Source of the DNA: Sabellastarte sp. h YS-2021
Taxonomy: Eukaryota > Annelida > Polychaeta > Sabellida > Sabellidae
DNA: 64,000 nt
Reading direction: 5' to 3'
Assembly: GCA_964017235.1 (NCBI GenBank)
Contig: OZ024936.1
Coordinates: 47,853,028-47,917,027, forward strand
Both the position numbers and the translations under genes were made by a program. Positions 16,096-60,889 of this stretch are shown here, one piece after another. How positions within the stretch are numbered: the first letter of the stretch is position 1; every line of letters starts with the position of its first letter. The notes below the pieces were generated by a model, which had not been told where the DNA came from, searched no databases, and saw only the letters and a program-made list of their open reading frames with translations.

Positions 16096-16198
16096 TTACT
16101 TGATAACCAAAAAATAAAATGACCTTACCCGTAACATCTTGAAGGTAAAGGAATACCTAGATCCTGGGAGAGACTCCTGAAGACTTGGTTGTAGTGGA

Positions 16199-16233
<35 letters not shown>

Positions 16234-17811
16234 TTTTTTTTCTTTTCGAGGACAACTGGTCTGAGGGGAAGGATCTAGGACTTGTTGTGCCGCCACTACG
16301 GGTCCCAGATACATATTGTTGTCCGACCAAGTAAGGTCTTTGAGGTAAAAATTTGTAAATGTGTTGTGAGCTTTCCAGTGACAGGCTTGCATGATTTGGT
16401 CCACCGATACCTCACCGTAAAAGGCCTTAGAGGCCGCGAAAGCCCGGATATCATGCGCTTTAACTTGGACCAAGTCCAAGGCTTGTTGGTCTGCTTGTTT
16501 GTAACAAAATAGGATGGTTCGTTTCAACCAGGAAAAGAGAGTAGCGGGTCTGATGTCTGAGGTATGACCTTTCTTGAAGGTGATAAAAAGGAGGGAACGA
16601 GACCCTCTCAGGTCTTTGGTTCGGTCCAGATAATACCTCAGGGCCCGTACCGGACACAGGGTCCTGTCTTCCTTAAATTGTCTATCTACAATGGTAGTCA
16701 AAGCAGGAATAGTCACCGGAGACACACTTTGAGAACCTTCTCTTGCTAGTTGGTTTTTGGCTATGAAATCAGAAGGGAACAAGGCGACCTTTTCCCATTG
16801 GCCTAGATTAGATACTTTGTTTGCGACCCAGGCATGGATTTCGCTGCGGCGTTTGCCGGAGGCCAAAGCTAGCAAGAAAGCAGTTTTGAGAGTAAGATGT
16901 TTGAGGTCTGTGTCTTTCATGGGCTCAAATGGTGCTTTTGTGAGCTCGTTGAGGACAACAGAAAGGTTCCACTTGGGTAAATTTCTGGAACTTTTGGGAC
17001 GATCCCTGTGAAAACTGGAGAGTAACCTATGAAGGTCTGCATTGTGTGCAATATGTTGGGCCGTTGGGCCCAAAGTGTCAACGATTGCAGTCCTGTAACC
17101 ATCAATGGTCGAGGGGCGCCTGTTTAGGTCTTGGTACAGGTACATGAAAAAATCTGAGATTTGTTTCACAGATGGAGTGGAGAAATCCACCGAATTTTCT
17201 CTGCACCATTTTTCAAATAGGGCCCACTTTGACTTATAGATGGTCCTTGTTGATGACCGCTGAGGGGCAGCAATTCTCTCTGCTACCTCCACAGAGAAGC
17301 CTTGTTCTTGGAGTTGTCCGCTCCTAGACACCAGGCGTGGAGGTTCAGATGCTGGGGGTTGTTGTGGAACACATACTTGTGGGACTGTTTGAATAGGGTC
17401 GTTGACACTGGGAGTTGTAGTGGGATCTCTGTTAAGAGCTGCACTAGGTCCCAAAACCAGGGCATCCCTGGCCAGCCTGGGGCTATTACTATGATCAGGC
17501 AATGACATTGCCTGATCTTTTGGATCACCTTGTAAAGGAGAGCCATAGGAGGGTACGCATAGGCCGTGAGGTTGGTCCAGTTTATGCTTAGAGCATCTAT
17601 GTCCCAGGCCCTTGGGTCTGGGATAGGAGACACGTACTGTGGGAGCTTGTGGTTCAGGTGAGTGGCAAATAAGTCTACATGAGGTGTGAACCACTTCTGG
17701 CAGATCTGTTTGAACACCTGTGGGTGCAGAGACCATTCTGTTGACTGCACTTGACATCAAGCATCTTGCAGTCAAAACACGTTTTGACTTGAGTCGTAGG
17801 ATTAAATCCAT
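16096..17811 (-). CDS. DIRS-like tyrosine recombinase, copy C (open frame), with overlapping RNase H C-terminus
   Basis: An open 571-codon minus-strand frame. Residues from about 180 onward are a clear DIRS/Ngaro-type tyrosine recombinase: a helical N-terminal domain (YKSKWALFEKWCREN, YLYQDLNRRPSTIDGY), catalytic Arg in ASGKRRSEIHAW, the HxxR motif in VKAHDIRAFAASKAFYG, and the final His/Trp-Tyr block ACHWKAHNTFTNFYLKDL. The RNase H C-terminus overlaps in another frame at 17,283-17,750 (VDLFATHLNHKLP, WDIDALSINW, APGWPGMPWFWDLV), which is how DIRS elements pack these genes. The real start is internal; the first ~150 residues read through RNase H sequence out of frame. A run of 31 C (16,203-16,233) gives a poly-Gly tail. 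Upstream gag and RT are absent, so this is a 5'-truncated copy. Confidence 0.88.
16203..16233. repeat. Homopolymer, 31 C
   Basis: Uninterrupted run of 31 cytosines followed by eight thymines, inside the 3' part of the recombinase frame. Length is likely variable and assembly-sensitive. Confidence 0.95.
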
Positions 17812-18465
17812 GCGATATGGCGGCCATTTTGTTTTTTGAACTAGGTCAAATTTATTATCGGGCTAGCTTTTCTAGCCATATAGCTTTTGTGCAAATTTGA
17901 TGAAGCTAGCTGGAATATTTCAAGATTTAGAGCGCCTTTACAATTTTCAAACAATTAGCTATGGCGGCCATTTTGTTTTTCAAAATGAGGCTAAAATTTT
18001 TCAGAGACAGGTTTTCATAGCCATAAACATTCCCTGCAAATCTGGTGAAGATATGCAATATTTGGGGAGATATAAGGCCTTTTTAATAGGATAACCCTGT
18101 TTGACATTAAACATGTGATATGGCGGCCATTTTGTTTTTTGAACTAGGTCAAATTTATTATCAGGCTAGCTTTTCTAGCCATATAGCTTTTGTGCGAATT
18201 TGATGAAGCTAGGTGGAATATTTCAAGATTTAGAGCACCTTTAGGATTTTGAAACAATTAGCTATGGCGGCCATTTTGTTTTTCAAAGTGAGGCTAAAAT
18301 TTTTCAGAGACAGGTTTTTATAGCCATAAACATTCCCTGCAAATTTGGTGAAGATATGTTCATAAATGAATGAGATATTAAGGTTTACGCAAAAACGTGA
18401 CGGACGGACAGACGGACGGAAGGCGTTTTATAATCTCCCGACCACGGCCTTCGGGAGATAACAAG
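17812..18465. repeat. Dispersed repeat, 'ATGGCGGCCATTTTG' units in duplicate, ending in a hairpin
   Basis: Two long direct repeats (about 17,815-18,060 and 18,117-18,360) contain 'TATGGCGGCCATTTTGTTTT' and 'GAAGATATG'. They are followed by a GACGGACGGACAGACGGACG stretch and a hairpin 'CTCCCGACCACGGCCTTCGGGAG' style end at 18,436-18,460. This looks like the 3' end of a mobile element of unknown class. Confidence 0.75.
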
Positions 18466-31730: not shown

Positions 31731-32668
31731 GGTAAAATATCTGGATATTCTTCATCTCGAAACATTGATTATAAGAAAGAGAACACCGCAAAGAATTTAT
31801 TACATTTGGATTAAGGAGTCGATGTTGATAGTCCTTGTACTGATGAATGAATCCAATTGAGACTAACCAGATTTATATAGAAATGTAAACAAAATATTAG
31901 AAAAAAAGAAAATTGCCTCAATTTTTTCCATGGAGTTTTGAATCTGATAGTGCATTTCAAATTAACACATTTAGTTTTGTTAAAGGGCCACTAAAACCAA
32001 GTTTTAAAAAGTTATTTTTTCAAATGAAACATGTAAACTGTTAATTATACAATACTACAATAAATAAAAATGCAAAAATACACTCAATAGTTTATTTTAA
32101 TCATTTTTATATAGCAAGATTTGTCTTTCTGGTGCAAAGTGGGAGACATTAAAGTTAAGATAATGTGCTTGAGTGTACTCACCACTGTCAGAACCACGAC
32201 TAGCAAGTCTGTTTATGCATATGGAGAGCAGTTACTGGAGAATGCAAGCCAAATATTGAGACTAAGTTGGAAATGCTTTGGTTTAGAGGCAGGATTTAAG
32301 CTTCGTTTTCAAAGAAGAAATACAATGGGATGCATGAGTCTTATTAGAAAGAATCTTAATGAGAAGTGGGACCATCAAAAGCAAAGCCATAATAAAAGTA
32401 TTTTGCAGACTTTTGAGTTATTGGATTAAAATTTGCTACAGCAAGGAAAGTACAAATGCTTTGAGTCTGGTACTGCAAGAACTACTGAAAGTAGAATGAT
32501 ATGTCAAGAAACTTGTAAACAAGTGCAGCTGTTTTAAACTCTGTTCAACAGGCGGCAATGCAGATTCTTATAAAGAGACAGACAAAGAAATTAATTTGAA
32601 TATATTTGAAAATGTATGGGGAGTTCTGATGAATGTACATGAAGACACAAGTCAGCAGGCTACACAGC
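31731..32668. other. RPS8 upstream flank up to the Polinton; nothing else recognised
   Basis: AT-rich; the 102-codon plus frame at 32,121-32,429 has no recognisable domain. CACAGC at 32,663-32,668 is the left candidate target duplication of the Polinton. Confidence 0.45.
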
Positions 32669-32845
32669 AGTAGTATAGGAGTTAGTATGGTCACACAAAT
32701 AGTCACACAATCTACGTGGTCCCCCCCCCTGGGGGTTGTATAGATTTTTGTGACCAGCAGTCACGGCCCATCTGTGTGAGGAGGGGGATATGGGGGAGTT
32801 GTGGGGGTTTACTTAATGCAGGGTGTGTTAATTGTCTGTGAAAAT
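32669..32845 (+). repeat. Polinton left terminal inverted repeat
   Basis: About 177 bp matching the complement of 53,497-53,670 with only small indels (for example in the C run at 32,721 and a GTGTG/GTG difference at 32,823). Includes GTCACACAAATAGTCACACA and GGCCCATCTGTGTGAGGAGG. It begins with AG as in other Polintons. Confidence 0.96.
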
Positions 32846-34868: not shown

Positions 34869-34877
34869 ACTTTTATA
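34869..34877 (-). promoter_or_regulatory. TATAAAAG element overlapping the TBP-like stop codon
   Basis: Minus-strand TATAAAAGT; its TAA (34,873-34,875) is the stop codon of the TBP-like gene. It precedes the 68-residue gene. Confidence 0.5.
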
Positions 34878-35367
34878 ACACTTCTAACTCTAGTAAAACA
34901 GCATTAACTTTGTTATCCAAATCTTTTTCGGATTTTATTCCAGTCACAATCGTTTTACCGCTTTTATAAACGGTATAATGTATCCCCTCTCTTATAAAGC
35001 CCACAGCATGAAAGATTTCCGGTTCATAAGAACCTTGCATCCATTGTACTATTTTGCAATAGTCTACTTTTCCTCGTAAAGTATATACAGCACTCATAGT
35101 AAGCGTTTTGATTTTCTTCATCCTTACCGGATATCCCATTCTTTCCACTAACCTGGCGTATCGTCTCATTTGTTCTTTCCCTCCGTGACAAATAATTTTT
35201 CCGGTAGAATAAATCATGCAAGTGCATCCGATTTTCCTATGTCTCCACAATAATCTTTCAAACGACAAAGAATGGTACTCGATGTCGATCTTCGTTTCTG
35301 CCATATCGCGCAGATTTAATGGACATCCCAAATCGCTGTAAAGCACTCGATGCGTTAACTTGGCCAT
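34873..35367 (-). CDS. TATA-box-binding protein (TBP) homologue encoded by the Polinton
   Basis: 164 residues covering the whole saddle-shaped TBP core as two direct repeats. Repeat 1: SDLGCPLNLRDMA, MIYSTGKIICHGGK, RRYARLVERMGYP. Repeat 2: the very diagnostic SYEPEIFHAVGFI followed by TVYKSGKTIVTGIKSEKDL. Cellular TBP core is about 180 residues, so this is nearly complete with a short spacer loss. The four DNA-intercalating Phe of cellular TBP (57, 74, 148, 165 in Arabidopsis numbering) correspond here to Tyr53, Tyr79, Tyr134 and a Leu near residue 160. It would bind TATA-like promoters and recruit TFIIB/RNA polymerase; changed kink residues suggest altered specificity or bending. It begins 18 nt after the stop of the membrane-protein gene. 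TBP homologues are known in some large DNA viruses; I know of none described as standard in Polintons. Confidence 0.92.
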   Translation of the reverse strand: MAKLTHRVLYSDLGCPLNLRDMAETKIDIEYHSLSFERLLWRHRKIGCTCMIYSTGKIICHGGKEQMRRYARLVERMGYPVRMKKIKTLTMSAVYTLRGKVDYCKIVQWMQGSYEPEIFHAVGFIREGIHYTVYKSGKTIVTGIKSEKDLDNKVNAVLLELEVL

Positions 35368-35385
35368 CTGGACTCGAACTGATCA

Positions 35386-35895
35386 TTAAACCAAACTCTC
35401 TTCCGTATATATCTTCAAATGAGCATTTGGTTCGTTTAAGGGTTTTTTGGTATACTGGTATATTATCCGATAACCTCCTACTAAACCCAGAAGCGAAAAC
35501 GGAATGAATGTTAAAAAGAATGGCCACAAGAAAACTTCGTTACCTTCCGTTATTTCAATCGTAGATAGAGAGTCTCTTGGACAATCGCTATTCACGTAGA
35601 TATGGCTGCTCCATCCCTCCAGCTCTCTACAACTGGAATACCTATTGCCAATCCAATTTAACATAGCAAGATTAGGCCAGTCATCTAAATCCGGTATTTG
35701 GGATAAGCTGCTATTAACAATATCCAGCATATCAATATTCCATATATCCGAACTATTAAATCTCGGAAACTCTTCTATTTCTTTACAGGATATTAAACTC
35801 AGAGACTCGTAGCATCGACACACCGCTGGTTCACCACAAGGTTTGCAATAAAACCCGGGTATCCAAAAGAAAATCAAGAAATACTTCGCATACAT
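35386..35895 (-). CDS. Small type I membrane protein with LRRNT-like cysteine cap (member 1)
   Basis: 169 residues. Signal peptide 1-17 (YFLIFFWIPGFYC), cysteine cap C-x5-C-x-C-x8-C (residues 20-37), a leucine-rich-repeat-like stretch (IPDLDDWPNLAMLNW), further cysteines at 89 and 105, one transmembrane span about 121-146 and a short cytoplasmic tail. NSS sequons at 47-49 and 61-63 suggest glycosylation. The architecture matches two other genes of this element at 48,456-49,396 and 50,064-50,720. TATAAAAGGGG lies 32 nt before the ATG. LRRNT caps occur in Toll-like receptors and adhesion proteins, so surface recognition (virion attachment or interference with host receptors) is a hypothesis only. 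Confidence 0.78.
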   Translation of the reverse strand: MYAKYFLIFFWIPGFYCKPCGEPAVCRCYESLSLISCKEIEEFPRFNSSDIWNIDMLDIVNSSLSQIPDLDDWPNLAMLNWIGNRYSSCRELEGWSSHIYVNSDCPRDSLSTIEITEGNEVFLWPFFLTFIPFSLLGLVGGYRIIYQYTKKPLNEPNAHLKIYTEESLV

Positions 35896-35927
35896 CCTGA
35901 ATGATTCATTTTTAGACCTGTTCCTCC

Positions 35928-35936
35928 CCTTTTATA
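35928..35936 (-). promoter_or_regulatory. TATAAAAGG element before the member-1 membrane gene
   Basis: Minus-strand TATAAAAGG ending 32 nt before the ATG at 35,895. A second TATAAAGAAG at 35,939-35,948 contains the major capsid stop codon. Confidence 0.6.
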
Positions 35937-35943
35937 GACTTCT

Positions 35944-37200
35944 TTATAGGATATTTCTGGCAGCATCCACTCTTATTTCAGCCGGAAAAGATGCGTACAG
36001 CAAGACGGTAGCATTTTCTTCTAAAGCCTTGGCAAATTTTAAATTGATTCTGGTATGCCCGCATTTCTTCTGATTTACCACATCCCCGCCTACTCTTCCC
36101 AAAATTCTAAATATGTATATGCAGTAACCGTTGGGATATTCTTTCATTTCTATACACCGACCGTATCTAGGTTCCTCGCACATCAGGGTCCAGTAAGCTT
36201 CAGAAAAATCTCCATTGGTATAGTTAGGCGTAATAGCTTGAGATGGAACGGACACTCCATCTACCATAACCTCTGCGAAATTTAATTGGTAATTTTTAAA
36301 ATTAAAGGGATTTTCAGAGTAATTACCATTGAATGCGCTTCCGCTGCACAACACTATTTTGATCTCAGAGGGTATGCTCCCGTGATACACGTCATCGGCA
36401 GACCACCCGTAACTTCCCTTTTCTATATTGAAAGCTTTTAAATCGGACTTCCAAAACGGGTACACGGCGCATTGCTTTGGTATTCTTTTTTCATGCACTA
36501 CCACCATACCAGGGCTTAGTTTCACCTGACAGACTCTCAAAGAGGCGTATTGTATTTCAACTTTGTAGTCGTCGGTAGTCTCAGCCATGAGTCGAAAAGG
36601 ATCTTCGTGCTGGTAAAGTTTCATACGAATTCTAATACCATTGATGATAAATTTCTTTTGTTGACAAATATCCATTCTAATAGGGCCTTCTAAAAAGACT
36701 GTATTACCTTTACTCGTCCGTTTGTACCTTCGGTCGAACCCGATATTACTGGTCGAGTCGCTATCCATTGCGTCATAAGAGTCTTTATGGAATAGTTCGT
36801 TATTTAATATTCCCTTGGTATCTCCGATGTTACTGTTTAAAAGGGCATCTAAATACGCTTTGTAAGGATAATAAGAGCCCACGCTTGCGGTAATCAGCCT
36901 CTGGTTTAACTCGATGTCTACTTGTCTGAACAAACTTTGCAATCCAAGGTTTGCTAAACATACTTTGTCCTCTTCGGTCACAGGTTTATCCTCCCCCGTT
37001 ACGATGCGTAGGCCCACTCTCAATCTACTTCTATTTAAATCGATATATGCGGCAGAATTTCCGGGTATATCGAATTCTAAGGGAGCATTTCTTCCTATCA
37101 CGCCCTGAGGGGCATAGGGAATCCATTCCGTTTTTTCAATGAAAGAATCCGTATGGGTCTCTTCGAACAAATGCAAATTAGATTCGTACACCTCCATCAC
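35944..37200 (-). CDS. Major capsid protein, F54H12.2/hexon-like double jelly roll
   Basis: 418 residues, complete. Signature of Polinton/adintovirus capsid proteins: a Trp-containing lead (TEWIPYAPQG), then NAPLEFDIPGNSAAYIDLNRSRL, SLFRQVDIELNQRLI and YYPYKAYLDALLN, then a region with EGPIRMDICQQKKFI and IRIRMKLYQHEDPFRL, and a second beta-rich half ending LLYASFPAEIRVDAARN. The C. elegans protein F54H12.2 named this family; it is predicted to form trimers of double jelly rolls that build an icosahedral shell. The start overlaps the stop of the basic core-like gene (TGATG), so the two may be co-translated or use separate TATAAGAGG-driven transcripts. The start at 37,200 has a second Met right behind it. 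No breaks. Confidence 0.93.
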   Translation of the reverse strand: MMEVYESNLHLFEETHTDSFIEKTEWIPYAPQGVIGRNAPLEFDIPGNSAAYIDLNRSRLRVGLRIVTGEDKPVTEEDKVCLANLGLQSLFRQVDIELNQRLITASVGSYYPYKAYLDALLNSNIGDTKGILNNELFHKDSYDAMDSDSTSNIGFDRRYKRTSKGNTVFLEGPIRMDICQQKKFIINGIRIRMKLYQHEDPFRLMAETTDDYKVEIQYASLRVCQVKLSPGMVVVHEKRIPKQCAVYPFWKSDLKAFNIEKGSYGWSADDVYHGSIPSEIKIVLCSGSAFNGNYSENPFNFKNYQLNFAEVMVDGVSVPSQAITPNYTNGDFSEAYWTLMCEEPRYGRCIEMKEYPNGYCIYIFRILGRVGGDVVNQKKCGHTRINLKFAKALEENATVLLYASFPAEIRVDAARNIL

Positions 37201-37565
37201 GAAAATATATCTTTTCGCACCGTCCTTCGACCTCTTATAGACTTTTTAACCCTCTTGACTGTTGTATTTTTCCTCTTAGGTTTTTTATTTACGCTATTAT
37301 TACCAGTCTTCTTTTTTTTCTGAGTCGGTTTTCCCGTTCCAGCTTTCTTTTTCTGCGCCTGTTTTCTCGTTCCAGCTTTCTTTTTCTGCGCCTGTTTTCT
37401 CGTTCCAGCTTTCTTTTTCTGCGCCCGTTTTCTCATTCCCGTCTTCTTTTTCTGCACCGGTTTTCCCGTTCCTCTCTTCCTTTTGACCAACATTTCAGCC
37501 ATTTCGGTTTGCTGTTGCACCGGGCTGATTAATTTAAACGGATGGTAACCTTTGGGTATCCACAT
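37197..37565 (-). CDS. Very basic repeat protein, probable genome-condensing core protein (adenovirus pX/pVII-like role)
   Basis: 122 residues if started at 37,565, or about 100 from the internal MAEM. About 45 percent Lys+Arg, with four or five tandem 11-residue repeats of the form QKKKAGTRKQA (coded by 33-bp DNA repeats at 37,320-37,460), then a Lys/Arg tail. In adintoviruses and adenoviruses a small basic protein encoded near the capsid genes condenses DNA; position between penton-like and major capsid genes supports that role here. The identity is inferred from composition and place. It overlaps the penton-like gene by 32 nt. Confidence 0.7.
   Translation of the reverse strand: MWIPKGYHPFKLISPVQQQTEMAEMLVKRKRGTGKPVQKKKTGMRKRAQKKKAGTRKQAQKKKAGTRKQAQKKKAGTGKPTQKKKKTGNNSVNKKPKRKNTTVKRVKKSIRGRRTVRKDIFS
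37231..37239 (-). promoter_or_regulatory. TATAAGAGG element before the major capsid gene
   Basis: Minus-strand TATAAGAGG 30 nt before the capsid ATG, inside the 3' coding part of the basic protein gene. Confidence 0.6.
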
Positions 37566-37941
37566 ATTTTTTCCTTAGATACAAGGTACACTCGATATCG
37601 CTCAGTTGGTAAGGTTTTAAGTTTTGATCGAGAATACTCAATCTTATACTCCGCACCTCTGATTTATTCGTTTCTACGAAATATGGTAGCGTATATTGAG
37701 CCTCTTTCCCGTCCACTCTCCGTAACACAGGGTACTGACTTCCCTTTAAAAAACTCTCTTCGCAAAAGTCCGCTAATACGTAAAAAGTAGATTTCTTTGG
37801 GGCCCTTACTTTAATATCCGTCAAGGCTACCTCCCACTTTCCTTGTAAAAGCAAACTTTTTGGCAAATCCACGATAAAATCGTTAGGCCTGTTGAAAGGG
37901 TGAACCTCTAAGGAATCCTGCCAGCCTATGTAGAGAAACAT
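37534..37941 (-). CDS. Penton-like minor capsid protein
   Basis: 135 residues. The N-terminal sentence (FLYIGWQDSLEVHPFNRPND, FIVDLPKSLLLQGKWEVALTDI) is the conserved start of Polinton/adintovirus minor capsid (penton-like single jelly roll) proteins, in which an 'LxGxWEVALxEI' block is typical. The C-terminal sentence (RSIRLSILDQNLKPYQLSDI then CTLYLRKK) matches the family's closing strands. It is short compared with the ~200-plus residues usual for the family, so loops may be lost. It lies immediately after the integrase gene: the integrase stop, a TATAAGAG and this ATG are within 10 nt. Confidence 0.78.
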   Translation of the reverse strand: MFLYIGWQDSLEVHPFNRPNDFIVDLPKSLLLQGKWEVALTDIKVRAPKKSTFYVLADFCEESFLKGSQYPVLRRVDGKEAQYTLPYFVETNKSEVRSIRLSILDQNLKPYQLSDIECTLYLRKKYVDTQRLPSV

Positions 37942-37949
37942 CTCTTATA
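37942..37949 (-). promoter_or_regulatory. TATAAGAG directly before the penton-like ATG, containing the integrase stop
   Basis: Minus-strand TATAAGAG followed directly by ATG. The TAA (37,945-37,947) ends the integrase frame. If used as a TATA box, this ATG would lie upstream of the start site, so the motif may act differently here. Confidence 0.45.
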
Positions 37950-39042
37950 AACTTTTCAAATCTTTATCGGCCACCCAAGAATCAAATTTTTTGGGCCAAT
38001 GCAACCACCTTACCAAATGTTCTTTGCGACCTTTAGTTTTACGCGTTTTTAGCACTTTGCTAATTTTCCACTTTCTATTTTCGTCGCTCTGCTCCACTTT
38101 CTGCAATTCGGCTTCGTAGAAGCTTCCTTTTATATCTTCGTCCAAAAAGTCTTTTAAACGATACACATTGATTCCATCCCTCTTATAACGCGCCCTTATT
38201 TTGAATATCTCACCGGTCCATTTGAAATCGTATTCCCTGTCGAAAAGGGTTTTAGTGTGAGTAACTCTTACGTTATCGCCTACTTTAAACTTATAAGGTT
38301 TCAGCCGGAAATTTTCGTCCTTTTCAGGCCAATAGGAATACCACCAGACCGATCTTTCGTTACTCCGACCCACCCTCGCAGGGGGCATACCTATGGTTCT
38401 ATGATAGCTATAGTTATAAGATCGTACAAGCTCTTCTAAATGGTCTATATATTTCTCCTTGTCATAATGAGTGATGTATCTATAAATCATCTTTTTCAGG
38501 GTTTTAATTACTCTTTCGGCAAAATTCGCTTTGGTCTCGTTTTGACTGGTATAAAATTCTATTTTTTCATCTTTCAAAAGCCCTTGTACTTGCTTATTAG
38601 AAAATTCTTTTCCTTGGTCGAAACGGCACTTTTTAGGTTTGCGCCCCTTTCGAAAAATATCTTCTAAAGCGGCTTTGACCTCTTTACCCGTTTTGTTCTT
38701 TAAAGGTCTGACAAAAAGGTATTTTGAGAAGACGTCGATGGCAACTAACAGGAACTTTATTCCGTCATTCTTTTTTGCCAAAGACCCTACATCCATTAAA
38801 TCTACATCCCATTGACTGTCTATTCCTTCTACCACTACTCTGCTACGTCTTTTTGGTTTACGCGACTGGCGATGTAAACTGTATGAGTCTTTATTTTTTA
38901 GCCAAGTTGCCACCTGGTTCTTCGTCACATCGAAATTACCCTCTTCTTTCAAGTAGCGATATAACTTCTGCGGTCCCGCAAAACTAGCCGGATTCCCCGG
39001 ATCGAAGTAATTCTTCTCCAGAAACTGTTTCCATGGGGTCAT
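37945..39042 (-). CDS. Polinton integrase (retroviral-type DDE) with C-terminal chromodomain
   Basis: 365 residues. After an N-terminal helical domain, the RNase H-fold catalytic core has WDVDLMDVGS (Asp81), a strand block FLLVAIDVFSKYLFVRPL, CRFDQGKEFSNK (Asp142) and ANFAERVIKTLKKM (Glu176); the Asp-Glu spacing is slightly shorter than the classic 35. HRTIGMPPARV follows, as in this family. An SH3-like segment (FKVGDNVRV) and a chromodomain (about 319-365: WKISKVLKTR, HLVRWLHWPKKFDSW) close the protein; chromodomains can steer insertion to marked chromatin. The enzyme inserts the element and makes 6-bp target duplications. All catalytic residues are present. Confidence 0.95.
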   Translation of the reverse strand: MTPWKQFLEKNYFDPGNPASFAGPQKLYRYLKEEGNFDVTKNQVATWLKNKDSYSLHRQSRKPKRRSRVVVEGIDSQWDVDLMDVGSLAKKNDGIKFLLVAIDVFSKYLFVRPLKNKTGKEVKAALEDIFRKGRKPKKCRFDQGKEFSNKQVQGLLKDEKIEFYTSQNETKANFAERVIKTLKKMIYRYITHYDKEKYIDHLEELVRSYNYSYHRTIGMPPARVGRSNERSVWWYSYWPEKDENFRLKPYKFKVGDNVRVTHTKTLFDREYDFKWTGEIFKIRARYKRDGINVYRLKDFLDEDIKGSFYEAELQKVEQSDENRKWKISKVLKTRKTKGRKEHLVRWLHWPKKFDSWVADKDLKSL

Positions 39043-39169
39043 CCCTGTTTAACAGCTGTAAACAATGTCGTAATATACCGAACCAAAATCCCTTTCCAGT
39101 GGGATCGAACAAGGCAGCTATTACCACCACCAAACACACAGCTATTCGACAGATGTAACCGATCTTCAT
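38984..39169 (-). CDS. Small membrane-anchored protein overlapping the integrase start
   Basis: 61 residues with one hydrophobic segment near the N-terminus (YICRIAVCLVVVIAALF, about 5-21) and a charged tail. It overlaps the integrase start by 59 nt in another frame. TATAAGAG ends 28 nt before its ATG, so it is probably the first frame of an mRNA also carrying the integrase. No family recognised. Small hydrophobic proteins are common in virus-like elements, but function here is unknown. Confidence 0.5.
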   Translation of the reverse strand: MKIGYICRIAVCLVVVIAALFDPTGKGFWFGILRHCLQLLNRDDPMETVSGEELLRSGESG

Positions 39170-39197
39170 TTTGGTAAAACTGTTAATCCTTGACCCA

Positions 39198-39205
39198 CTC
39201 TTATA
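39198..39205 (-). promoter_or_regulatory. TATAAGAG containing a stop codon, before the 61-residue gene and integrase
   Basis: Minus-strand TATAAGAGTGGG. Its TAA (39,201-39,203) is the stop of the upstream 129-residue gene. Confidence 0.55.
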
Positions 39206-39590
39206 ACTTTTGCCAAGTACTGCCCGTCTTTTTATCTCGTCTTGGAAATGGGTTTTTTCTACGGGTAACTACGCTTTTAGGAACATTGACCTCGCTTAGT
39301 ATTTCTAGAAAGGTCCCGTAATGGGGAGGGGGAGATTCGCCGTATTCTTGTAGACTATAACGTACTAGGTCTGTAATGTGACTACCCTCCAGGCATTTAT
39401 CGTTGTAAACCACTTCACCGTTATTTTTCCACTCAATACTACCCTGTATGTAACTGAGTAATGAATCCGCTTTACGCTTTAAAGATTTTGGCACAGCCGA
39501 TACGATCAATTCTTTCTCCAAACCTTTATTTTTAGGTTTGTCTAGCCCTTCCTCGTAAGGCACTAACATCATTTTACGTATGCTATTCAT
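39201..39590 (-). CDS. Conserved Polinton/adintovirus virion-cassette protein (129 residues)
   Basis: Begins with a KMMLVPYEEG block, then a Lys-rich linker and the pattern 'LL..I....EW...GEVVY......GSHITDLVRYSL', followed by PPPHYGTFLEIL and NVPKSVV. I recognise this pattern from uncharacterised proteins that sit beside the F54H12.2-type capsid gene in animal Polinton-like elements. Precise role unknown; a minor virion or assembly protein is the usual guess. Its ATG overlaps the stop of the preceding gene (ATGA), so the two are probably co-transcribed. Complete and unbroken. Confidence 0.65.
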   Translation of the reverse strand: MNSIRKMMLVPYEEGLDKPKNKGLEKELIVSAVPKSLKRKADSLLSYIQGSIEWKNNGEVVYNDKCLEGSHITDLVRYSLQEYGESPPPHYGTFLEILSEVNVPKSVVTRRKNPFPRRDKKTGSTWQKL

Positions 39591-39880
39591 AATCTCTTTA
39601 ATACGGGGGCTGCTACACGTAATACAAGTTTAATAACTTTAGCCTTCCTTTTTATGTCACTTTTGCTACCTTTACGGGCAAACTCCCTCAGAAAATTCTT
39701 GTATTTTTTCAAAGCTTTTTTATCTTCTTCCGTAATCGGCAAATTTCCCAATAGTAAGTTAAACACCGTTTCCTTCAGAACTAAAATTTGTCCTTTGTCG
39801 GCTATCTTCAAAAACGACGATAGCTGTTTATCAGTCGCCTCCGATAAATAGAGTAACAGACTCTTGCTCTTCGCATCCAT
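39587..39880 (-). CDS. Conserved small alpha-helical Polinton protein (97 residues)
   Basis: All-helical by pattern: LLLYLSEATDKQLSSFLK, then ETVFNLLLGNLPITEED, then KKYKNFLREFARKGSK and a basic C-terminus. The sentence 'NLLxGNxPxxxxxxxxLKxYKxxLRxLA' is familiar from the small protein upstream of the cassette protein above in Polinton-like elements. Function unknown. TATAAAAGG lies 27 nt before the ATG, within the last codons of the ATPase gene. Confidence 0.65.
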   Translation of the reverse strand: MDAKSKSLLLYLSEATDKQLSSFLKIADKGQILVLKETVFNLLLGNLPITEEDKKALKKYKNFLREFARKGSKSDIKRKAKVIKLVLRVAAPVLKRL

Positions 39881-39901
39881 GATATGACATCGAACTTTTA
39901 C

Positions 39902-40666
39902 TCAGTCCCTTTTATAGTTTATCGGTACGTAGACCAAAGGATCTTCACCCGGAAATATATTGGTTCTCAACCTGTATGCGTCATCGCCATTAGCCGTGGA
40001 ATCGATCACCAAATATCCGTATTTACGAGAAGTAGCGTCCTCGTACGCCTCCACTAATGCTTTATTATTGCCCGGAAACATTTGTTTTCCTAAAGCAGAT
40101 ATCTGTTGCCCATCCCTTATATTTCTAAACAAAACCGTGTAATGAGTGTTTAAGGCTATAGTTCTCGCGCATTTGCCTTGCCTGAAACAATTGTGACTAA
40201 CAAAAAACACGCTAAGATTCGAGTGGTGCGCTCCCTGAACGAACAACCTTTCCATATCGGGGTCCTTAACCACGCCTTCTGAGAGGTTGTCCAAAATCAC
40301 GAGATTATGCATTCCATCCGCAAAATTTTCTATCTCGGCCCGACTCGGTATGCCTTCTAGAAATTCTATACCCTCCACTTCCTTTTTCATGCTGTCGAAA
40401 GTATCTTGGTAGATACCGTAACAATACAATATTTTGTTTACCGGTTCCGAAAACATGACATTCTTGTTCCTAAGTAAGCGAAACAACCATGTAGTTTTTC
40501 CGCTTTTGGTTGCTCCGGATACGCAGGCTGTGGATGCCGCTTCGAAAGGTAAGGGTACAGCTTCCTTTCCAAAATGATTATTGTGAAACCTCTGAATATG
40601 TCTCTTGTAGTTATAGCCTTTAGAAAAGCTTTTATCGCATTCACTACACGTTTTCATGGTGGTCAT
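39902..40666 (-). CDS. FtsK/A32-type genome-packaging ATPase with N-terminal C2H2 zinc finger
   Basis: 254 residues. Residues 7-28 form a C2H2 finger (CSECDKSF...HIQRFH). The ATPase follows: Walker A GATKSGKTT (51-59), Walker B NLVILDN (121-127), and the sensor-like SNLSVFFVSHNCF with RTIALNTHYTVLFRNIRD, typical of Polinton and adintovirus A32-like ATPases. It pumps the genome into preformed capsids. The finger in front may recognise DNA (for example the termini). First gene of the minus-strand block; TATAAAAGG is 22 nt before the ATG and nothing coding lies upstream. Intact. Confidence 0.93.
   Translation of the reverse strand: MTTMKTCSECDKSFSKGYNYKRHIQRFHNNHFGKEAVPLPFEAASTACVSGATKSGKTTWLFRLLRNKNVMFSEPVNKILYCYGIYQDTFDSMKKEVEGIEFLEGIPSRAEIENFADGMHNLVILDNLSEGVVKDPDMERLFVQGAHHSNLSVFFVSHNCFRQGKCARTIALNTHYTVLFRNIRDGQQISALGKQMFPGNNKALVEAYEDATSRKYGYLVIDSTANGDDAYRLRTNIFPGEDPLVYVPINYKRD
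39908..39916 (-). promoter_or_regulatory. TATAAAAGG before the 97-residue gene, inside the ATPase 3' end
   Basis: Encodes the last Tyr-Lys-Arg of the ATPase; the TGA stop follows three bases later. Confidence 0.58.
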
Positions 40667-40688: not shown

Positions 40689-40697
40689 CCTTTTATA
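40689..40697 (-). promoter_or_regulatory. TATAAAAGG before the ATPase gene
   Basis: Minus-strand TTTTATAAAAGG ending 22 nt before the ATPase ATG. This copy is in non-coding DNA, so codon use does not explain it. Confidence 0.62.
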
Positions 40698-40699
40698 AA

Positions 40700-40850
40700 A
40701 TCTTAGTTTTTAGGGTAATTAGAATTAGGGTTTAGGGCTTTAGATTTAGGGTTTAAGGGCTTTAGATTTAGGGTTTAAGGGCTTTAGATTTAGGGTTTAA
40801 GGGCTTTAGATTTATGGGTTTAGGGTACTTAGAGCTTAGGGTTTTAGGTT
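40700..40850. repeat. Telomere-like tandem repeat (TTTAGGGTTTAAGGGC units)
   Basis: About four copies of a ~28-bp unit 'TTTAAGGGCTTTAGATTTAGGG', followed by degenerate TTAGGGTTTTAGG sequence. It contains TTAGGG and TTTAGGG but is irregular, so it is a local expansion and not a telomere. Confidence 0.8.
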
Positions 40851-42090
40851 AAGGTGGCTCCTAAATGACTCCGGATAGTTCCTAATTGGCTCCGGATGAG
40901 CTCCGGATAGCTCCTAAATGACTCCGGATAGTTCCTAATTGGCTCCGGATGAGCTCCGGATAGCTCCTAAGTGCTCCGAAGGGGCTCCTAAATGGCTCCT
41001 AAGAGCTCCGGAGGAGCTCCGACATGGCTCCTAAGTGCTCCGGAGGAGCTCCAAATGGCTCCTAAGAGCTCCGGAGGAGCTCCGACATGGCTCCTAAGTG
41101 CTCCGAAGGGGCTCCTAAGTGCTCCGACATGACTCCGGAGGGGCTCCGACATGGCTCCTAATTGGCTCCGGATGAGCTCCGGATAGCTCCTAAGTGCTCC
41201 GAAGGGGCTCCTAAATGGCTCCTAAGAGCTCCGAAGGGGCTCCTAAGTGCTCCGACATGACTCCGGAGGGGCTCCGACATGGCTCCTAAGTGCTCTGGAG
41301 GAGCTCCAAATGGCTCCTAAGAGCTCCGGAGGAGCTCCGACATGGCTCCTAAGTGCTCCGAAGGGGCTCCTAAGTGCTCCGACATGACTCCGGAGGGGCT
41401 CCGACATGGCTCTGGAGGGCTCCGACATGGCTCCGTCGGAGGAGCTCTGGATGGCTCCGGATAGCTCCTAATTGGCTCCGGATAGTTCCTAATTGGCTCC
41501 GATAGCTCCTAATTGGCTCCGGATAGTTCCTAAATGGCTCCGGATAGCTCCTAATTGGCTCCGGATAGTTCCTAAATGGCTCCGGATGGCTCCTAAATGG
41601 CTCCGGATAGTTCCTAAATGGCTCCGGATGGCTCCTAAATGGCTCCGGATAGTTCCTAAATGGCTCCGGATAGCTCTTAAATGGCTCCGGATAGCTCCTA
41701 AATGGCTCCGGAGGGGCTCCGGATAGCTCTTAAAGTGCTCCGACAGGGCTCCGGAGCCCCTCCGGATGGCTCCTAAATGGCTCTGGATAGCTCTTAAGTG
41801 CTCCGGAGGGGCTCCGGATAGCTCTTAAATGGCTCCGGAGGGGCTCCGGATGGCTCCTAAATGGCTCCGGATAGCTCCTAAGTGCTCCGGATAGCTCCTA
41901 ATTGGCTCCTAAATGGCTCCGGATAGCTCCTAAATGGCTCCGGAGGGGCTCTGGATTGCTCTTAAATGGCTCCGGATAGCTCCTAAATGGCTCCGGAGGG
42001 GCTCCGGATAGCTCTTAAAGTGCTCCGACAGGGCTCCGGAGGGGCTCCGGATGGCTCCTAAATGGCTCTGGATAGCTCTTAAGTGCTAAG
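40851..42090. repeat. GGCTCC(T/G) satellite inside the Polinton
   Basis: About 1.24 kb of 16-19-bp units built from 'GGCTCCTAAATG', 'GCTCCGGATAGCTCC' and 'GGAGGAGCTCCGACAT'. GAGCTC and TCCGGA palindromes recur. The reading frames through it are accidental. Confidence 0.93.
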
Positions 42091-48455: not shown

Positions 48456-49396
48456 TCAATTTGTATAACGGTAATGGTGCTGTCTCTGAGTTGTCTGTCT
48501 GAGGTTGTAGACTCTTCTTTCTTGTCTAGGCAGTCCTCTGTCCTGTCCGGCTGGTGGCCTATCTCCTCTAGCTACTGGTCCATCTTGTAGTGCTGGTGGT
48601 CTGCCTGGAAGCGGTTGATCCATAAACTGGCGCCGATAGGTCCTTTCCAATGTCCTCACCATCATCCCTGAAGATAAGTATAGAATATGCAATATATCTT
48701 ACAATAATAAGATTTTTAGTGTAAAAATTATACCTCTATAATTCAGTGTTATAATACAGTTGTTTCTACATTGTTCCTGGTGTGATATATTATAAAAATG
48801 GAATGGATTAATGGAAAAAGTATTACATCAGTTGGTAATAATTCAATTAATTGCTACAAATGGGAGGTGAATTAATGGTGTTTCTTACCTATAGCAAGAT
48901 TCAAGATGTTCAGTACTTTGTACATAAAGTGGACAGTCTTTGCAATACCCTCTATGGTCCTTATACACACTTGAATGCACATATGAATGAATTGCATGTG
49001 ATGAATGACATTGCGAATTTCTTGTTGATGGGCCTGTAGAAAGGCTATGAGAAAAATTGGAAGCATACACAAAGTGTAAAATAGGAATGATGTTTCTTTT
49101 TCAATGTCTATTGACTGAGTTTCATCGGTTATTAATTTTGATTTCATCAGTGATATCTCATGTAGATTGGGAAAGACCTTTTGAATTTTGTCCAGTTGAA
49201 ATGCACTGTCCCTTAAGACCAATTTCTGTATCCCTTTACTTTCATCATTGCTTAGTTTTAGCTGATCAGATGTTTCCAATTGTAGACATGATATCTGGTC
49301 TTTTCCACAAACACATTTCTCAGGACACATACAGTATACTGAGATGTAAATACAGAGTGTGATCAAAAATAATTTCCAAAACATAGTGATAGCCAA
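48456..49396 (-). CDS. Type I membrane protein with LRRNT-like cysteine cap (member 2), probably two exons
   Basis: Exon 1 48,889-49,396 encodes a signal peptide (about 1-22), the cap C-x3-C-x-C-x6-C (residues 24-37, exact LRRNT spacing), an LRR-like stretch (VFPNLHEISLMKSKL) and a transmembrane span near 103-120, then a helical segment. A good donor (AG|GTAAGA) follows at 48,888, and an acceptor with pyrimidine tract (ATCTTCAG) lies at 48,668. Exon 2 48,456-48,667 then continues in frame with an Arg/Pro/Gln-rich cytoplasmic tail to a stop. Without splicing the frame ends at 48,872. The intron is an inference from the sites. Same architecture as members 1 and 3. No homologue recognised. Confidence 0.7.
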
Positions 49397-50063: not shown

Positions 50064-50720
50064 ATGTTCATCAAAGTATTATCAGTCTTTTGGGCTTTGG
50101 TCATTACCAGGGGTTTGATGTGGTGCCATGAAAAATGTATTTGTCAAGAACAAAACAGAAAAGTATATTGCACAAATGTCAACAGAAATGATGTTTTCAG
50201 ACAGCCAGAAATTACCAGAGAAATTGTATTAAGTAAGAGTTTTGTTGGAATGGGTTGGTTGACTACAGTTTTCAACAGCTTGGATTCTGTAAGAATTTCT
50301 GATTCTGTGATTTTAGACTGTAATGTTATGTACAAAGTTACTCTGATAGGAGCATGTGAAACAAGTACTGCAAGTATAACCCCTGAAATAAGTTATGTAC
50401 CGCATGGTATTGAGTCAAAAGGGATAACTCCATCGTTGAATAGTGTTCCCAAAAGTACACTTATTGTGACAGTGTGTGGAGTCATTTTCACTTGTACTCT
50501 GATAAGTACAATTACTGTATTTATCATAAAAAGAAAACTTGAAAATAGACTGCTAAGGGTCAGGGAGGAAAGAATGGCTGAAATGGGTAGAACTTTTGGT
50601 TTTGATTTTAATGAAAATGATGAAGAAGAGGCAAACAGGCAAGCCGAAGAGAAGGAAATTAAAAAAGAACATCCCGTAAAAAATGGAATAGAAGCCCTGA
50701 ACAACACAAATATAATTTAA
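50064..50720 (+). CDS. Type I membrane protein with LRRNT-like cysteine cap (member 3)
   Basis: 218 residues: signal peptide 1-20 (VLSVFWALVITRGLMW), cap C-x3-C-x-C-x8-C (residues 21-36), an ectodomain with an LRR-like stretch (VFNSLDSVRISDSVILDC), transmembrane span about 132-155 (LIVTVCGVIFTCTLISTITVF), and a long charged tail rich in Glu/Lys/Arg, probably coiled coil. The start is chosen at the Met that opens the signal peptide; a TATATATGT lies about 45 nt upstream. It is divergently arranged with member 2, with 667 nt between their starts. AATAAA follows at 50,988. No named family beyond the cap. Confidence 0.8.
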   Translation: MFIKVLSVFWALVITRGLMWCHEKCICQEQNRKVYCTNVNRNDVFRQPEITREIVLSKSFVGMGWLTTVFNSLDSVRISDSVILDCNVMYKVTLIGACETSTASITPEISYVPHGIESKGITPSLNSVPKSTLIVTVCGVIFTCTLISTITVFIIKRKLENRLLRVREERMAEMGRTFGFDFNENDEEEANRQAEEKEIKKEHPVKNGIEALNNTNII

Positions 50721-50999: not shown

Positions 51000-51660
51000 G
51001 TAAATAAAACTAAGCTCGATTTTGTTGGTATTGTAACATAGGTTTGTTTGGTGTCAATATGTTTGTCTGAAATCATAGGATAAGACAGTTTTTGAAATTT
51101 TTTAAATTGGACTATCCCTCAAAAAAGTTATGAGCATTTGAAAATTATACATTATAATTCCTTAACAATTGTTAAGGAGAGATAATAGGCTTTTACAATG
51201 GGACTTTTTTAGTGTGCTGGATTTCGAAATATTGTGCATTTATTATTTAGGGTTATAGTATAAGGTATCAAAATGTTTGTCTGAAATTGTAGATTCAGCT
51301 CCATTTGGAATTTTTAAAATCGGACTATTCCTCAAAAAGTTATGAGCATTTGAAAATTATACATTATAATTCCTTAACAAGACCTTTTTAATGATTTAAT
51401 GACACCAGCTGTGCGAATGCAATTGTCAAGGAGGTGGATAATAGGCTTTTACAATGGGACTTTTTAGTGTGTTGGAATTCGAAATATTATGCATTTATTA
51501 TTCGGGATTATAGTATTAGGTATCAAAATGTTTGTCTGGAGATATGGATCAAGGTCCTTTTTGAATTTTTAAAATCGGACTATTCCTCAAAAAGTTATGA
51601 GCATTTGAAAATTATACATTTATTACCCCACACTTTTTTCCAGATCATTAAACCCATTTT
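51000..51660. repeat. ~200-bp tandem repeat, three copies
   Basis: Units contain 'GGACTATTCCTCAAAAAGTT' and 'ATGAGCATTTGAAAATTATA' (51,108, 51,330, 51,580). Confidence 0.85.
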
Positions 51661-52129
51661 GTATTGTGGAATGACCATCTGTGAGAATAGTCACATGCTT
51701 TTCAAATGATAGGGGATAATAGCCTTTCCATTGGACTCTAGTATATGATATTTAAATTTTTGGGACTTTGGTATATTAGAGGGATTCTTACTTATTCCAG
51801 TACTATTGAATAACAGTCGCCGAGAAAACTTTAAAATAAGGTAATTACTTTAAAATAAAGGTAATAATGTACAGGGGTTGGTTTAAATTAAAGGGATTGG
51901 GTTTGAATTATATATGACGTATAATGAAAGGCTGCTGTGCCAATGTGAAACTGGGTCCCTTTAACTGGCTTTTTAAAGGAAAAAAATTGTGGGAAAAAAG
52001 CTTGACCATTACTTGTGTGTACTTTTTTGGTTAGCTTTAATTTGTAGATGTTTAAATGACCCCTGTTGTTGATTTAAATACAATAATTCAATGTTTCAAT
52101 TTCTTTCATGATCAATTTTTATATAGCTT

Positions 52130-53496
52130 TACATGCCCCTTATTTGTTGGTGATGCTATGAATATTTTATATACTTCGTTCCAATAAATGTATTCCATTT
52201 CAACCTAATTTTCACAGATAATTATCACCCCTGCATCAAGTAAACCCCACCTCCCCCCATATCCCCCCTTGCACAGATGTCCCGTGATTTGAACTCAGTT
52301 GGCTGTTTGGTCACGCCAATCGGATTGCTGGAATTATAGTTGCTGGAATTATAGTCACCCCAATGGAAATCCAGGATTTTTTATGATGCTTTTATTTTGA
52401 AAATATGAAAAGTAGCAAACACTAGAGTCATTCAGCGGTTAATGGACTATATAATCCTTTTACCTTTCATGACTATTTCATTTTTAAATGTCCTTACAAA
52501 TTTTTACGGGTTTAAATGTCTTAACTATTTTGGATGTTTCATATTTATGATAAATTTGTAGTTTTAAATGTCCCTTATTTGTTGCTATGAATGTGTAGAT
52601 GATTAAATAATCCTTGTTGTTTGCATGTTTTGTTACAAATTTGTATGTCCTTTGTGTTTTATTTCTTTAGTGTTATCATAGATCTGTATATAGCTGTAAA
52701 ATGTCCCTTATTTGTTGCTATAAATATGTAGATGCTTAAATATTCCAGTTGTTTACTAGTTTTTTTAAAGGTCCTTGTTTGCTAGTTTTATTTTACCTTT
52801 AGCTGTTTGCATGATTTTATTTAATGTAGCTTTAAATGTTGTTTATTTGTTGGTGATGCTCTGAATATTTTATGTACTTCATTCCAATAAATGTATTCCA
52901 TTTCAACCTCATTTTCACAGATAATTAACACACCCCTGGCATTAAGTAAACCCCCCAAGTCCCCCATATCCCCCCTCCTCACACAGATGGGCCGTGACTG
53001 CTGGTCACAAAAATCTATACAACGCTGATTTATAGTCACGCCAATCGGATTGCTGGAATTATAGTCACCCCAATGGAAATCCAGGAATTTTTATGATGCT
53101 TTTATTTTTGAAAATATGAAAAGTAGCAAACACTATAGTCATTCAGTGGCTAATGGACCATATAATCATTTTACCTTTCATGACTATTTCGTTTTTAAAT
53201 GTCCTTACAAATTTGTATGGGATTAAATGTCTTAACTTTTTTGGATGTTTCATATTTATGATAATTTGTAGTTTTAAATGTCCCTTATTTGTTGCTATAA
53301 ATATGTAGATGCTTAAACATTCCAAAGTTGTTTACTAGTTTTTAAAGGTCCTTGGATGTTTGCTGGTTTTATTTTACTTTAGCTGTTTGGCATGATTTTA
53401 TTTGCCTTCATGTAGCTTTAAATGTTGTTTATTTGTTGGTGATGCTATGAATATTTTATGTACTTCCTTCCAATAAATGTATTCCATTTCAACCTA
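52130..53496. repeat. Partial terminal-repeat copies in tandem next to the right Polinton end
   Basis: Blocks with 'CAATAAATGTATTCCATTTC' and 'TTCACAGATAATTA' followed by inner TIR sequence (CATTAAGTAAACCCC, ATATCCCCCC) occur at 52,180-52,290, 52,885-53,022 and, as the real end, 53,470-53,670. Between them is a repeated block with CACGCCAATCGGATTGCTGG and AAATGTCCCTTATTTGTTGC. The middle copy keeps TIR sequence as far as CTATACAACGC and then breaks off. Confidence 0.88.
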
Positions 53497-53670
53497 ATTT
53501 TCACAGACAATTAACACCCTGCATTAAGTAAACCCCCCAACTCCCCCATATCCCCCTCCTCACACAGATGGGCCGTGACTGCTGGTCACAAAAATCTATA
53601 CAACCCCCCAGGGGGGGGACCACGTAGATTGTGTGACTATTTGTGTGACCATACTAACTCCTATACTACT
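53497..53670 (-). repeat. Polinton right terminal inverted repeat
   Basis: About 174 bp, complement of 32,669-32,845. The outer end is ACTCCTATACTACT. CACAGC follows at 53,673-53,678. Confidence 0.96.
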
Positions 53671-53678
53671 ACCACAGC

Positions 53679-56086: not shown

Positions 56087-57798
56087 AATCTTTAGTCCTT
56101 AGATTGGGGTGTTAAATCATCCACCAAACAAACGATTTTTAATTTTCATTTCAATGAATTTATTCTTGTTTATCACCTTGTATTTCTGTATATCTTAGTT
56201 ACTCCTTTTTTCAGATGCCACACACAAACATCAGCAAAGCAGCAGCAGCACCAGTACTCTCCCCTGGTCATGGCGTTCAGTCCATTGAGAATGGAAGAAA
56301 TGCGAGTTTTGATTTATTTTATTTATTTATTTAACCCAAGCCACTATAGACTGGCAGGGGGAAGTCACAGTTGGCACCGCACTGTCCAGGCAGTGGTGGG
56401 GGATAAAGCTTGTGGATAATTTTCACCTAATTTTTGGCATATGGTGTTCATTAAAATTGCAAGTAAATCAGAAAGTATAAAATGTTTTTAAAAAAGTATA
56501 ATTAAGATGTACATATTGCTAAAAATAATTTTGAAATCTAAAATTATTAAATATGCGGTTTTGCTTTTTGCAGTTCATCAGACTCAACATCAATAGAAGT
56601 CTCAGCCACATCTGAAGATTCATCATCGATATCATCATCATCGATATCATGATTCATCAATCTATCCTTGGCCAGCCAACATGCTGCAACTTTCTGACTC
56701 AGCCTATGTCAACAGTAGTGATGCTGACCTGAGTGATCCAACCTATGAATTGCCACCTGGGTAAATTTTTGTTTCTTTTTTTTTTATTTGTTTTTTCTTT
56801 TTTTTTTACTTCGAAATCGAACATTTATTTTGATGTATGTTGGTCAGTCGATTTGTATGTTTGTATGTTTGTTAGCATGTACCAGGCCACAATTTTTTAA
56901 GCTAGGCTTCTCATTTTTTCCCTATAATATTGTCAGATGTCAGAATAGAGAAGGACCAAATTTTGACAATATCGGTAGCATTTTCACATAGCTATAACCA
57001 TTTCAACTACTCTGAGTAAATGACTTATAACTCTGAAACTATTGCATTTAGAGTGTTTCTGTTAAATATGTTGTTCAGGTACTTTACCTATAAGATGGTG
57101 CATAGTTTGGAGTTCTGCTGCATTAGCTAAGCAAGTAATAGCTACTTTTTGATTTGTAGCAAATTTTTGAAATGAGAACATGTAAAATTTCTTTGAAAGT
57201 ATTGCACATAGTGACTTTCTTTGAATACATTATTTACCTATGTTGGGACTAAGTATGACATAATGAAATGGCAGACCTGAGAAATAGCTTTGAGATTATC
57301 ACTGTTGAGTAAATCGCTTGTAACTTTAACACTATTGCATTTAGGGTATTTTGTTGAAATATGTTATTCACTTACTTTTAGATCAGCTGTAACATAGTAA
57401 ACTTCCAGACCTCTAGCTCATTCCATAGTGGAGCATTAGCTACTTTAAGTTAGCCAAATTTGAACCCAATGCAAAATATGTATAGTTGGAATGTTGTATT
57501 GCAGCAAGTTATCAGTAAATTGCAGCCAGATTTCAAAGTTAACACTCAGCCGCAGCTGAATGCTCTTTTTGTTTTTTTTGTTATCGTTGTTGTTTTTTTT
57601 AAAAATAAGTATTAGTGTTATCAGTGTAAATAGTATTTGGATCATGGATTATCAGCATACTAGGTGACAATGTTATCCACAACAAGCTTGATACAGAGGA
57701 GTGATATGTCATTGTTATAATAATTTAAAACTGCTTTTTTTTGAAAAAAATTGTATTTATGGTGAAACTTTGTCTATATATATATTATGTATTTTTCA

Positions 57799-60775: not shown

Positions 60776-60889
60776 AAAAGCAATGTATGTAACCGGGGAC
60801 GTCCCCCACTACGGACAGGGAGAATCAATTATTTGCAAATACATATACATATATAGTGTGTTCACAGTACGAATGGGCTATGATACTAA

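Follow-up and report, generated by a model that had tools for sequence, protein, structure and literature searches.

Giant viruses and mirusviruses, whose genomes carry many transcription genes, were the previously known viral sources of TATA-binding proteins (TBPs). TBP is present in 59% of mirusvirus genomes (PMC10132985), is found now and then in Cymbomonas mirus-like elements (PMC10675990) and is recorded in giant viruses (PMC11464507, PMC12085832), and CpV-BQ1 encodes both TBP and TFIIB, by which host Pol II is believed to be directed (PMC12085832). For Polintons, adintoviruses, Mavericks and virophages, a literature search of partial coverage found no description of a TBP, in keeping with the first-pass annotation of this locus, which knew of none for Polintons; neither TATA nor TBP nor TFIID occurs as a word in PMC11071296, PMC11071308, PMC10120064, PMC12721341 or PMC11244446, and in PMC12220804 and PMC7786948 the matches stand in the reference lists alone. 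We report here a TBP homologue in an element of about 21 kb, bounded by terminal inverted repeats, in the genome of the annelid Sabellastarte sp. (Table 1). The window referred to throughout is the whole stretch of 64,000 nucleotides that was analysed.

The TBP gene and the element that carries it

The TBP frame runs from ATG to stop and spans both TBP repeats, including the motif SYEPEIF...SGK...TG, as the first-pass annotation had read it. Comparison with Pfam and with TBP structures bore this reading out: the protein matches PF00352 in two stretches with 69.3 bits (cut-off 22.9; E 2.6e-19), its best PDB chain is human TBP (E 5.8e-16), and it has the saddle fold of the TBP family. The frame begins 18 nt downstream of a short LRR/membrane-like ORF (LRRNT in Table 1) and lies inside the terminal inverted repeats, where it had been placed. 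Taken together, the sequence data support a genuine TBP that belongs to the element.

Table 1. Coordinates of the element, its genes and its TATAARAG boxes in the window
Feature	Position	Strand	Remark
CACAGC, likely target-site duplication, left copy	32663..32668
Left terminal inverted repeat	32669..32845		177 nt, 97.2% vs 53497-53670
Single-BIR (IAP-like) protein, 159 aa	32890..33369	+	PF00653 E 2.8e-20
p335, 335 aa	33435..34442	+	No Pfam match above cut-off; relatives in other copies
TBP homologue, both repeats, 164 aa	34873..35367	-	PF00352
LRRNT, LRR-like short membrane protein (by eye), 169 aa	35386..35895	-	No Pfam match; relatives in other copies
TATAAAAG box	35929..35936	-	41 nt from LRRNT start; TBP is the next gene
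Major capsid candidate, 418 aa	35944..37200	-	Presumed from size and position; relatives at 20/20 places
Basic repeat protein, 122 aa	37197..37565	-
TATAAGAG box	37232..37239	-	39 nt from capsid-candidate start
Penton candidate, 135 aa	37534..37941	-	Presumed from position; relatives at 20/20 places
TATAAGAG box	37942..37949	-	8 nt from penton-candidate start
Integrase, rve core and chromodomain-like end, 365 aa	37945..39042	-	PF00665 E 4.9e-13
p61, 61 aa	38984..39169	-	Overlaps integrase start by 59 nt
TATAAGAG box	39198..39205	-	36 nt from p61 start
p129	39201..39590	-	Relatives at 18/20 places
p97	39587..39880	-	Relatives at 18/20 places
A32-like packaging ATPase, N-terminal C2H2 finger, 254 aa	39902..40666	-	PF04665 E 6.7e-4
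TATAAAAG box	39909..39916	-	36 nt from p97 start
TATAAAAG box	40690..40697	-	31 nt from ATPase start
Right terminal inverted repeat	53497..53670		97.2% vs left repeat
CACAGC, right copy	53673..53678		Two bases (AC) past the repeat

TBP is the last gene of a compact minus-strand block that reads ATPase, p97, p129, p61, integrase, penton candidate, basic protein, capsid candidate, LRR-like protein, TBP. The gaps between the genes of this block range from -59 to 48 nt, and 97.9% of positions 34873-40666 are coding; the BIR protein and p335 are oriented toward it. For the integrase, the Tudor-knot match lies above the Pfam cut-off and Chromo just below, and the ATPase match to PF04665 (poxvirus A32 family) reaches 19.6 bits, below the curated cut-off of 22.8. 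The capsid and penton names are our presumptions, made from position and, for the capsid, size: neither candidate has a Pfam or PDB match, and the structure model of the capsid candidate was unusable (pLDDT 32). No DNA polymerase was matched, and no adenovirus-type protease at E 0.01, in 43 of the 65 ORFs of at least 70 aa between the repeats (the other 22 are mostly short antisense frames of the left block), nor was an element polymerase, TFIIB or other general factor found among the ORFs scanned. The first-pass annotation had spoken of a Polinton/Maverick, which the integrase, the terminal repeats and the gene block favour; because neither polymerase nor protease was found in the ORFs scanned between the repeats and the capsid names are unsupported by the tools, and with the ATPase below its cut-off, we call the element Polinton-type rather than a complete Polinton.

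Several further features of the window deserve mention. A decayed family B DNA polymerase with broken frames lies at 57729-60800 (plus strand), about 4 kb past the right repeat (PF03175, E 6.7e-6, 25.7 bits for a cut-off of 25.8), and is possibly the remains of another element. The BIR gene, just inside the left repeat, adds to TBP another regulator of host type; copies of the more diverged lineages gave no BIR homologue above cut-off. p335 had looked PC4-like by eye, which found no support in Pfam or PDB. The AT-rich right half of the element holds two short signal-peptide/LRR-like membrane ORFs (48872-49396, minus strand; 50064-50720, plus strand), one with a TTG start, which by eye resemble LRRNT. 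Minisatellite arrays of TCCGGAGC-like units, GC-rich (54%), adjoin the ATPase gene at 40719-42087, and subterminal duplications of about 0.6-0.7 kb occupy 51200-53670, where parts of the terminal repeat recur at 52208-52287 and 52911-53023. Outside the element, a reverse transcriptase/RNase H fragment (9968-10843, minus strand) and a frame of 588 aa that looks by eye like a tyrosine recombinase (16099-17862, minus strand) perhaps form a DIRS-like element.

Other copies, selection and descent

A search of the 1.79-Gb host assembly gave at least 149 TBP-domain matches at E <=0.001 (150 of 288 candidates were scored), which is not a copy number, since repeats and exons were counted apart. At least 42 of them, the window's included, share a score of exactly 41.8 bits, and at least 21 score 40.4 bits. 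Twenty further places, chosen from the 149 for diversity and not at random, were read in stretches of up to 9.9 kb. At all 20, TBP adjoins homologues of the capsid candidate, the penton candidate and the integrase; homologues of p129, p97 and the ATPase on the same strand are also present at 18 (the exceptions being L149 and L150). A TBP confined to this one copy would have spoken against a feature of the element, as the first-pass annotation had pointed out; the linked gene is spread instead over at least four lineages, with 46-100% identity to the window's protein. Altogether, 26 TBP frames were read at 22 places, 23 of them of exactly 164 aa (16 distinct) and three broken or shortened; frames of 164 aa occur at 19 of the 22 places. 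Two element copies (L129 and L130; G000:C7, 34.62-34.64 Mb) encode the same TBP protein and lie about 11 kb from each other, oppositely oriented, an arrangement like that of a palindromic pair or of a single element that has a TBP block at either end.

Silent divergence was unsaturated in 9 of the 21 pairs formed by seven representatives. In these, dN/dS was 0.08-0.16 for seven pairs, 0.21 for one and 0.51 for one, the last within the young A group (dS 0.04), as would be expected for drift after insertion. The ratios indicate that the element TBP is under purifying selection between lineages.

In a phylogenetic tree of seven element TBPs with cellular TBPs (yeast, human, the host's ordinary TBP and every sixth X-free archaeal TBP), the element sequences group together (100/100) and fall, with yeast, human and the host, into a eukaryotic clade (97/93); the tool warned of long branches. 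Host and archaeal sequences, two of the three groups that the first-pass annotation had proposed for comparison, are thus represented, and the element clade stands apart from the host TBP. An archaeal origin is rejected on the trees. Two earlier trees used every third X-free archaeal TBP. In one, the window's TBP joined TBPL1, a long-branch meeting flagged by the tool, and we did not retain membership in TRF2; in the tree without TBPL1 the window's TBP groups with yeast and human (94/92). With the long-branch warning in mind, and for a tree of element and cellular TBPs, a single old capture would be the simplest reading. The host itself has ordinary TBP exons and an exon with the motif YEPELHP (L132, G000:C3:23638205), probably TRF2 to judge by that motif; in addition to the element TBPs it therefore appears to possess a TBP and a TRF2 of its own. 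Beyond the host, pattern scans of IMG/VR gave no relative (5 + 3 loci read, without TBP), an absence that weighs little because the search patterns were narrow; tblastn of phage records found no match for TBP or the capsid candidate, and Rfam gave no match.

The DNA face of the protein and the boxes of the element

The element TBP is 22-28% identical to cellular eukaryotic TBPs (PF00352; PDB 7egb, 1cdw, 1ytb), from which it differs by a six-residue gap at yeast 130-135, by the change of two wedge Phe to Tyr and by the loss of both central Asn. The wedges of yeast TBP are Phe99, Phe116, Phe190 and Phe207. These four align with Phe36, Tyr53, Phe119 and Tyr134 of the window's protein, so that it lacks the complete set of four wedge Phe of a canonical TATA-binding TBP, unlike the host TBP (exons L127 and L128), which retains all four. 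The first-pass annotation had listed Tyr53, Tyr79, Tyr134 and a Leu near 160, and this list was mistaken: two wedge positions remain Phe, Tyr79 pairs with yeast F148, outside the four wedges, and no Leu near 160 is a wedge. Over the 16 distinct copies (all residue counts leave out L140, L148 and L150, whose frames deviate from 164 aa), position 36 is always Phe, positions 53 and 134 always Tyr, and position 119 is Phe in eight, Tyr in seven and Cys in one, and thus a set with three Tyr does exist in seven of the proteins of the family.

The changes extend to the base contacts. For comparison we used archaeal TBPs retrieved with the pattern YEPEQFPG (112 frames from 110 of 118 loci, of which the 104 of at least 165 aa entered the residue table), whose constancy at yeast 185-192 holds by construction. 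The central pair, Asn69 (Asn in 100 of the 104) and Asn159 (103), is replaced by His6 and Thr90 in 16/16 distinct copies; Val161 (103) has become Ser, Thr124 (100) His, Leu114 (102) Met, Leu205 (all 104) Thr, and Arg196 (Arg in 90, Lys in the other 14) Ile. His6, Thr90 and Ser92 are constant in the 16 copies and His61 in 15, and the positions matching Leu114, Leu205 and Arg196 vary; Lys120, Lys211 and Thr215 of the DNA face are retained. Invariant sites are concentrated on the DNA face (10 of 17, namely H6, F36, Y53, K57, I59, T90, S92, Y134, K138 and T142, vs 44 of 164 overall; P 0.003, a rough value because the sequences are related), sites 119, 125 and 132 of the face differing between copies. 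The TFIIB stirrup, yeast E186 and E188, is kept as Glu115 in 16/16 and Glu117 in 15/16. The combination of fixed changes on the DNA face with a retained stirrup supports a DNA side that would have been re-tuned and then held, rather than decayed.

The word TATAARAG was found in the 50 nt upstream of 6 of the 10 minus-strand genes, for 0.06 expected, in a search of 8-letter words with one purine position, and it was still the best word when all two-fold positions were allowed. Six upstream matches were reached in none of 1000 shuffled, 1000 random window and 1000 random block sets (maxima 4, 5 and 5). The window has 19 sites for 7.2 expected, and the block 11 on the gene strand and none on the opposite one, although five of the 11 fall within a gene or on the stop of TBP rather than ahead of a start. 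The genes of p129, the integrase and the basic protein lack a box and each overlaps the preceding ORF; as this holds for every box-less gene other than TBP, all the predicted units (ATPase; p97-p129; p61-integrase; penton-basic; capsid; LRR-TBP) begin with a box. In five of these six units the box stands 31-41 nt before the ATG, which would put the start of transcription near the ATG; the penton box, at 8 nt, is too close for an ordinary TATA box. An upstream interval of 20-40 nt was set after the upstream regions had been seen; the word search, the shuffles and the tally given below are independent of it.

Over 21 places, counting genes with a placeable start and leaving out five three-kb loci, the box precedes the ATPase in 12/12, p97 in 17/19, p61 in 12/13, LRRNT in 19/20, the penton candidate in 15/20 and the capsid candidate in 13/21, and it precedes p129 in 0/19, the integrase in 0/17, the basic protein in 0/13 and TBP in 0/21, counts that are not independent, because many places are near-identical copies. 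The sites tallied comprise 58 of TATAAAAG and 30 of TATAAGAG. What carries weight is recurrence between lineages: the boxes before p97 (36-43 nt) and LRRNT (40-45 nt) recur in lineages A, B, C and D, the capsid-candidate box is absent in C and D, and the penton-candidate box is absent in C and in L139. Lineages A and B have an ATPase frame that reads through the p97 box, and in C and D this frame stops within it, which argues that the box is kept as DNA and not as protein code. Upstream of TBP itself the window has only TATATA at -44, and TBP may follow LRRNT in a shared unit or be under another promoter. By their sequence the boxes are canonical or near-canonical TATA boxes, and a radically different specificity is thus not what the promoters suggest. 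Of the changed specificity proposed in the first-pass annotation, the altered and family-fixed DNA contacts stand, through other residues than those it named.

A proposed role for the TBP of the Polinton-type element

The reading that we favour, with moderate confidence, is that of a retained and re-tuned TBP which would bring host TFIIB and Pol II to the element's own boxes. An ancestor of the element family would have taken up a eukaryotic TBP gene in a single event, and the family would have maintained the diverged protein as a general transcription factor, with its saddle, its SYEPEIF stirrup and a re-tuned DNA face. The protein would probably sit on the TATAARAG boxes before the packaging, integration and capsid-candidate units and there recruit host TFIIB and RNA polymerase II, which would render the element genes independent of host TFIID. 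We infer DNA binding, TFIIB binding and the reading of the boxes by the element TBP rather than by that of the host, as we would any early or late timing of the element genes; the element may in this way take over promoter recognition, as had been proposed. That the whole family shares a self-contained core-promoter system, in which one ancient TBP with a re-tuned, conserved DNA face would read the TATAARAG boxes that open the transcription units and deliver host TFIIB and Pol II to these units apart from host TFIID, we advance more tentatively, as possible but somewhat doubtful.

Against this main explanation stands the ordinary character of the boxes: a canonical TBP is present in the host and could read them. 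The box sites that precede no start, the capsid and penton boxes missing in some lineages, the short distance of the penton box and the variable DNA-face sites 119, 125 and 132 also count against it. One might then suppose that host TBP serves the boxes and that the element's own protein acts like TRF2 or as a decoy, binding TFIIB (perhaps also TFIIA, NC2 or Mot1) and not TATA DNA, and either dampening host transcription or redirecting it to TATA-less promoters. We consider this unlikely, though it is the strongest of the alternatives. The loss of both central Asn and of several hydrophobic base contacts could mean a loss of TATA binding: the near-universal Asn69, Asn159, Thr124, Val161 and Leu205 are gone, the YEPE stirrup is retained in 15/16 distinct copies, and TATAARAG never precedes the TBP gene itself (0/21). 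However, all four wedge positions are aromatic in 15/16 distinct copies, Lys120, Lys211 and Thr215 have stayed, and the altered DNA face is conserved, whereas a surface free of DNA should drift. The presumed host TRF2 (L132) is moreover altered at other residues. TRF2 has lost three wedge Phe and kept both Asn. The element protein resembles TRF2 (human TBPL1 and the host exon L132) as a diverged TBP with a YEPE stirrup and an altered DNA face, and differs from TRF2 in retaining the wedge aromatics and losing both Asn.

A role in RNA polymerase III-type transcription or linked to replication, with Brf-like partners or at the terminal repeats instead of at Pol II promoters, seems improbable: TBP does also partner Brf1/Brf2 (PDB titles), and no element polymerase or TFIIB that would point to one partner was found among the ORFs scanned, but protein genes are preceded by a TATA box of Pol II type, and no other upstream motif was found to recur. 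That the gene is a functionless passenger, picked up from the host as a TBP gene or pseudogene, as the one young A-group pair at dN/dS 0.51 (dS 0.04) and the 3/26 broken or shortened frames might suggest, is extremely improbable, being contradicted by linkage at 20/20 places in at least four lineages, the constant length of 164 aa, dN/dS of 0.08-0.16 between lineages and a clade apart from host TBP.

If the retained, re-tuned TBP is confirmed, a small integrating element in which no RNA polymerase was found would keep a single general transcription factor under selection, and TBP alone could suffice to steer host Pol II. The diverged copies would form a natural series in which the wedges, the base-contacting residues and the TFIIB-binding surface evolved separately, and the putative target boxes beside the TBP gene would make the pairing of factor and promoter directly testable.

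Giant viruses and mirusviruses resemble the element in encoding a TBP, and structural matches were found in BFVD, where the viral TBPs are 7-20% identical to that of the element (38 matches, E <=0.001). Their TBPs sit in large genomes with many transcription genes, whereas the element measures about 21 kb and has an integrase, no other general factor having been found in it. With Polintons/Mavericks and adintoviruses the element shares the chromodomain integrase, terminal inverted repeats and a compact gene block, and probably also an A32-like ATPase (below cut-off) and a 6-bp duplication (with two extra bases on the right); it differs from them in that the copy in the window is one in which neither polymerase nor protease was found, and in that it carries a TBP and a BIR protein.
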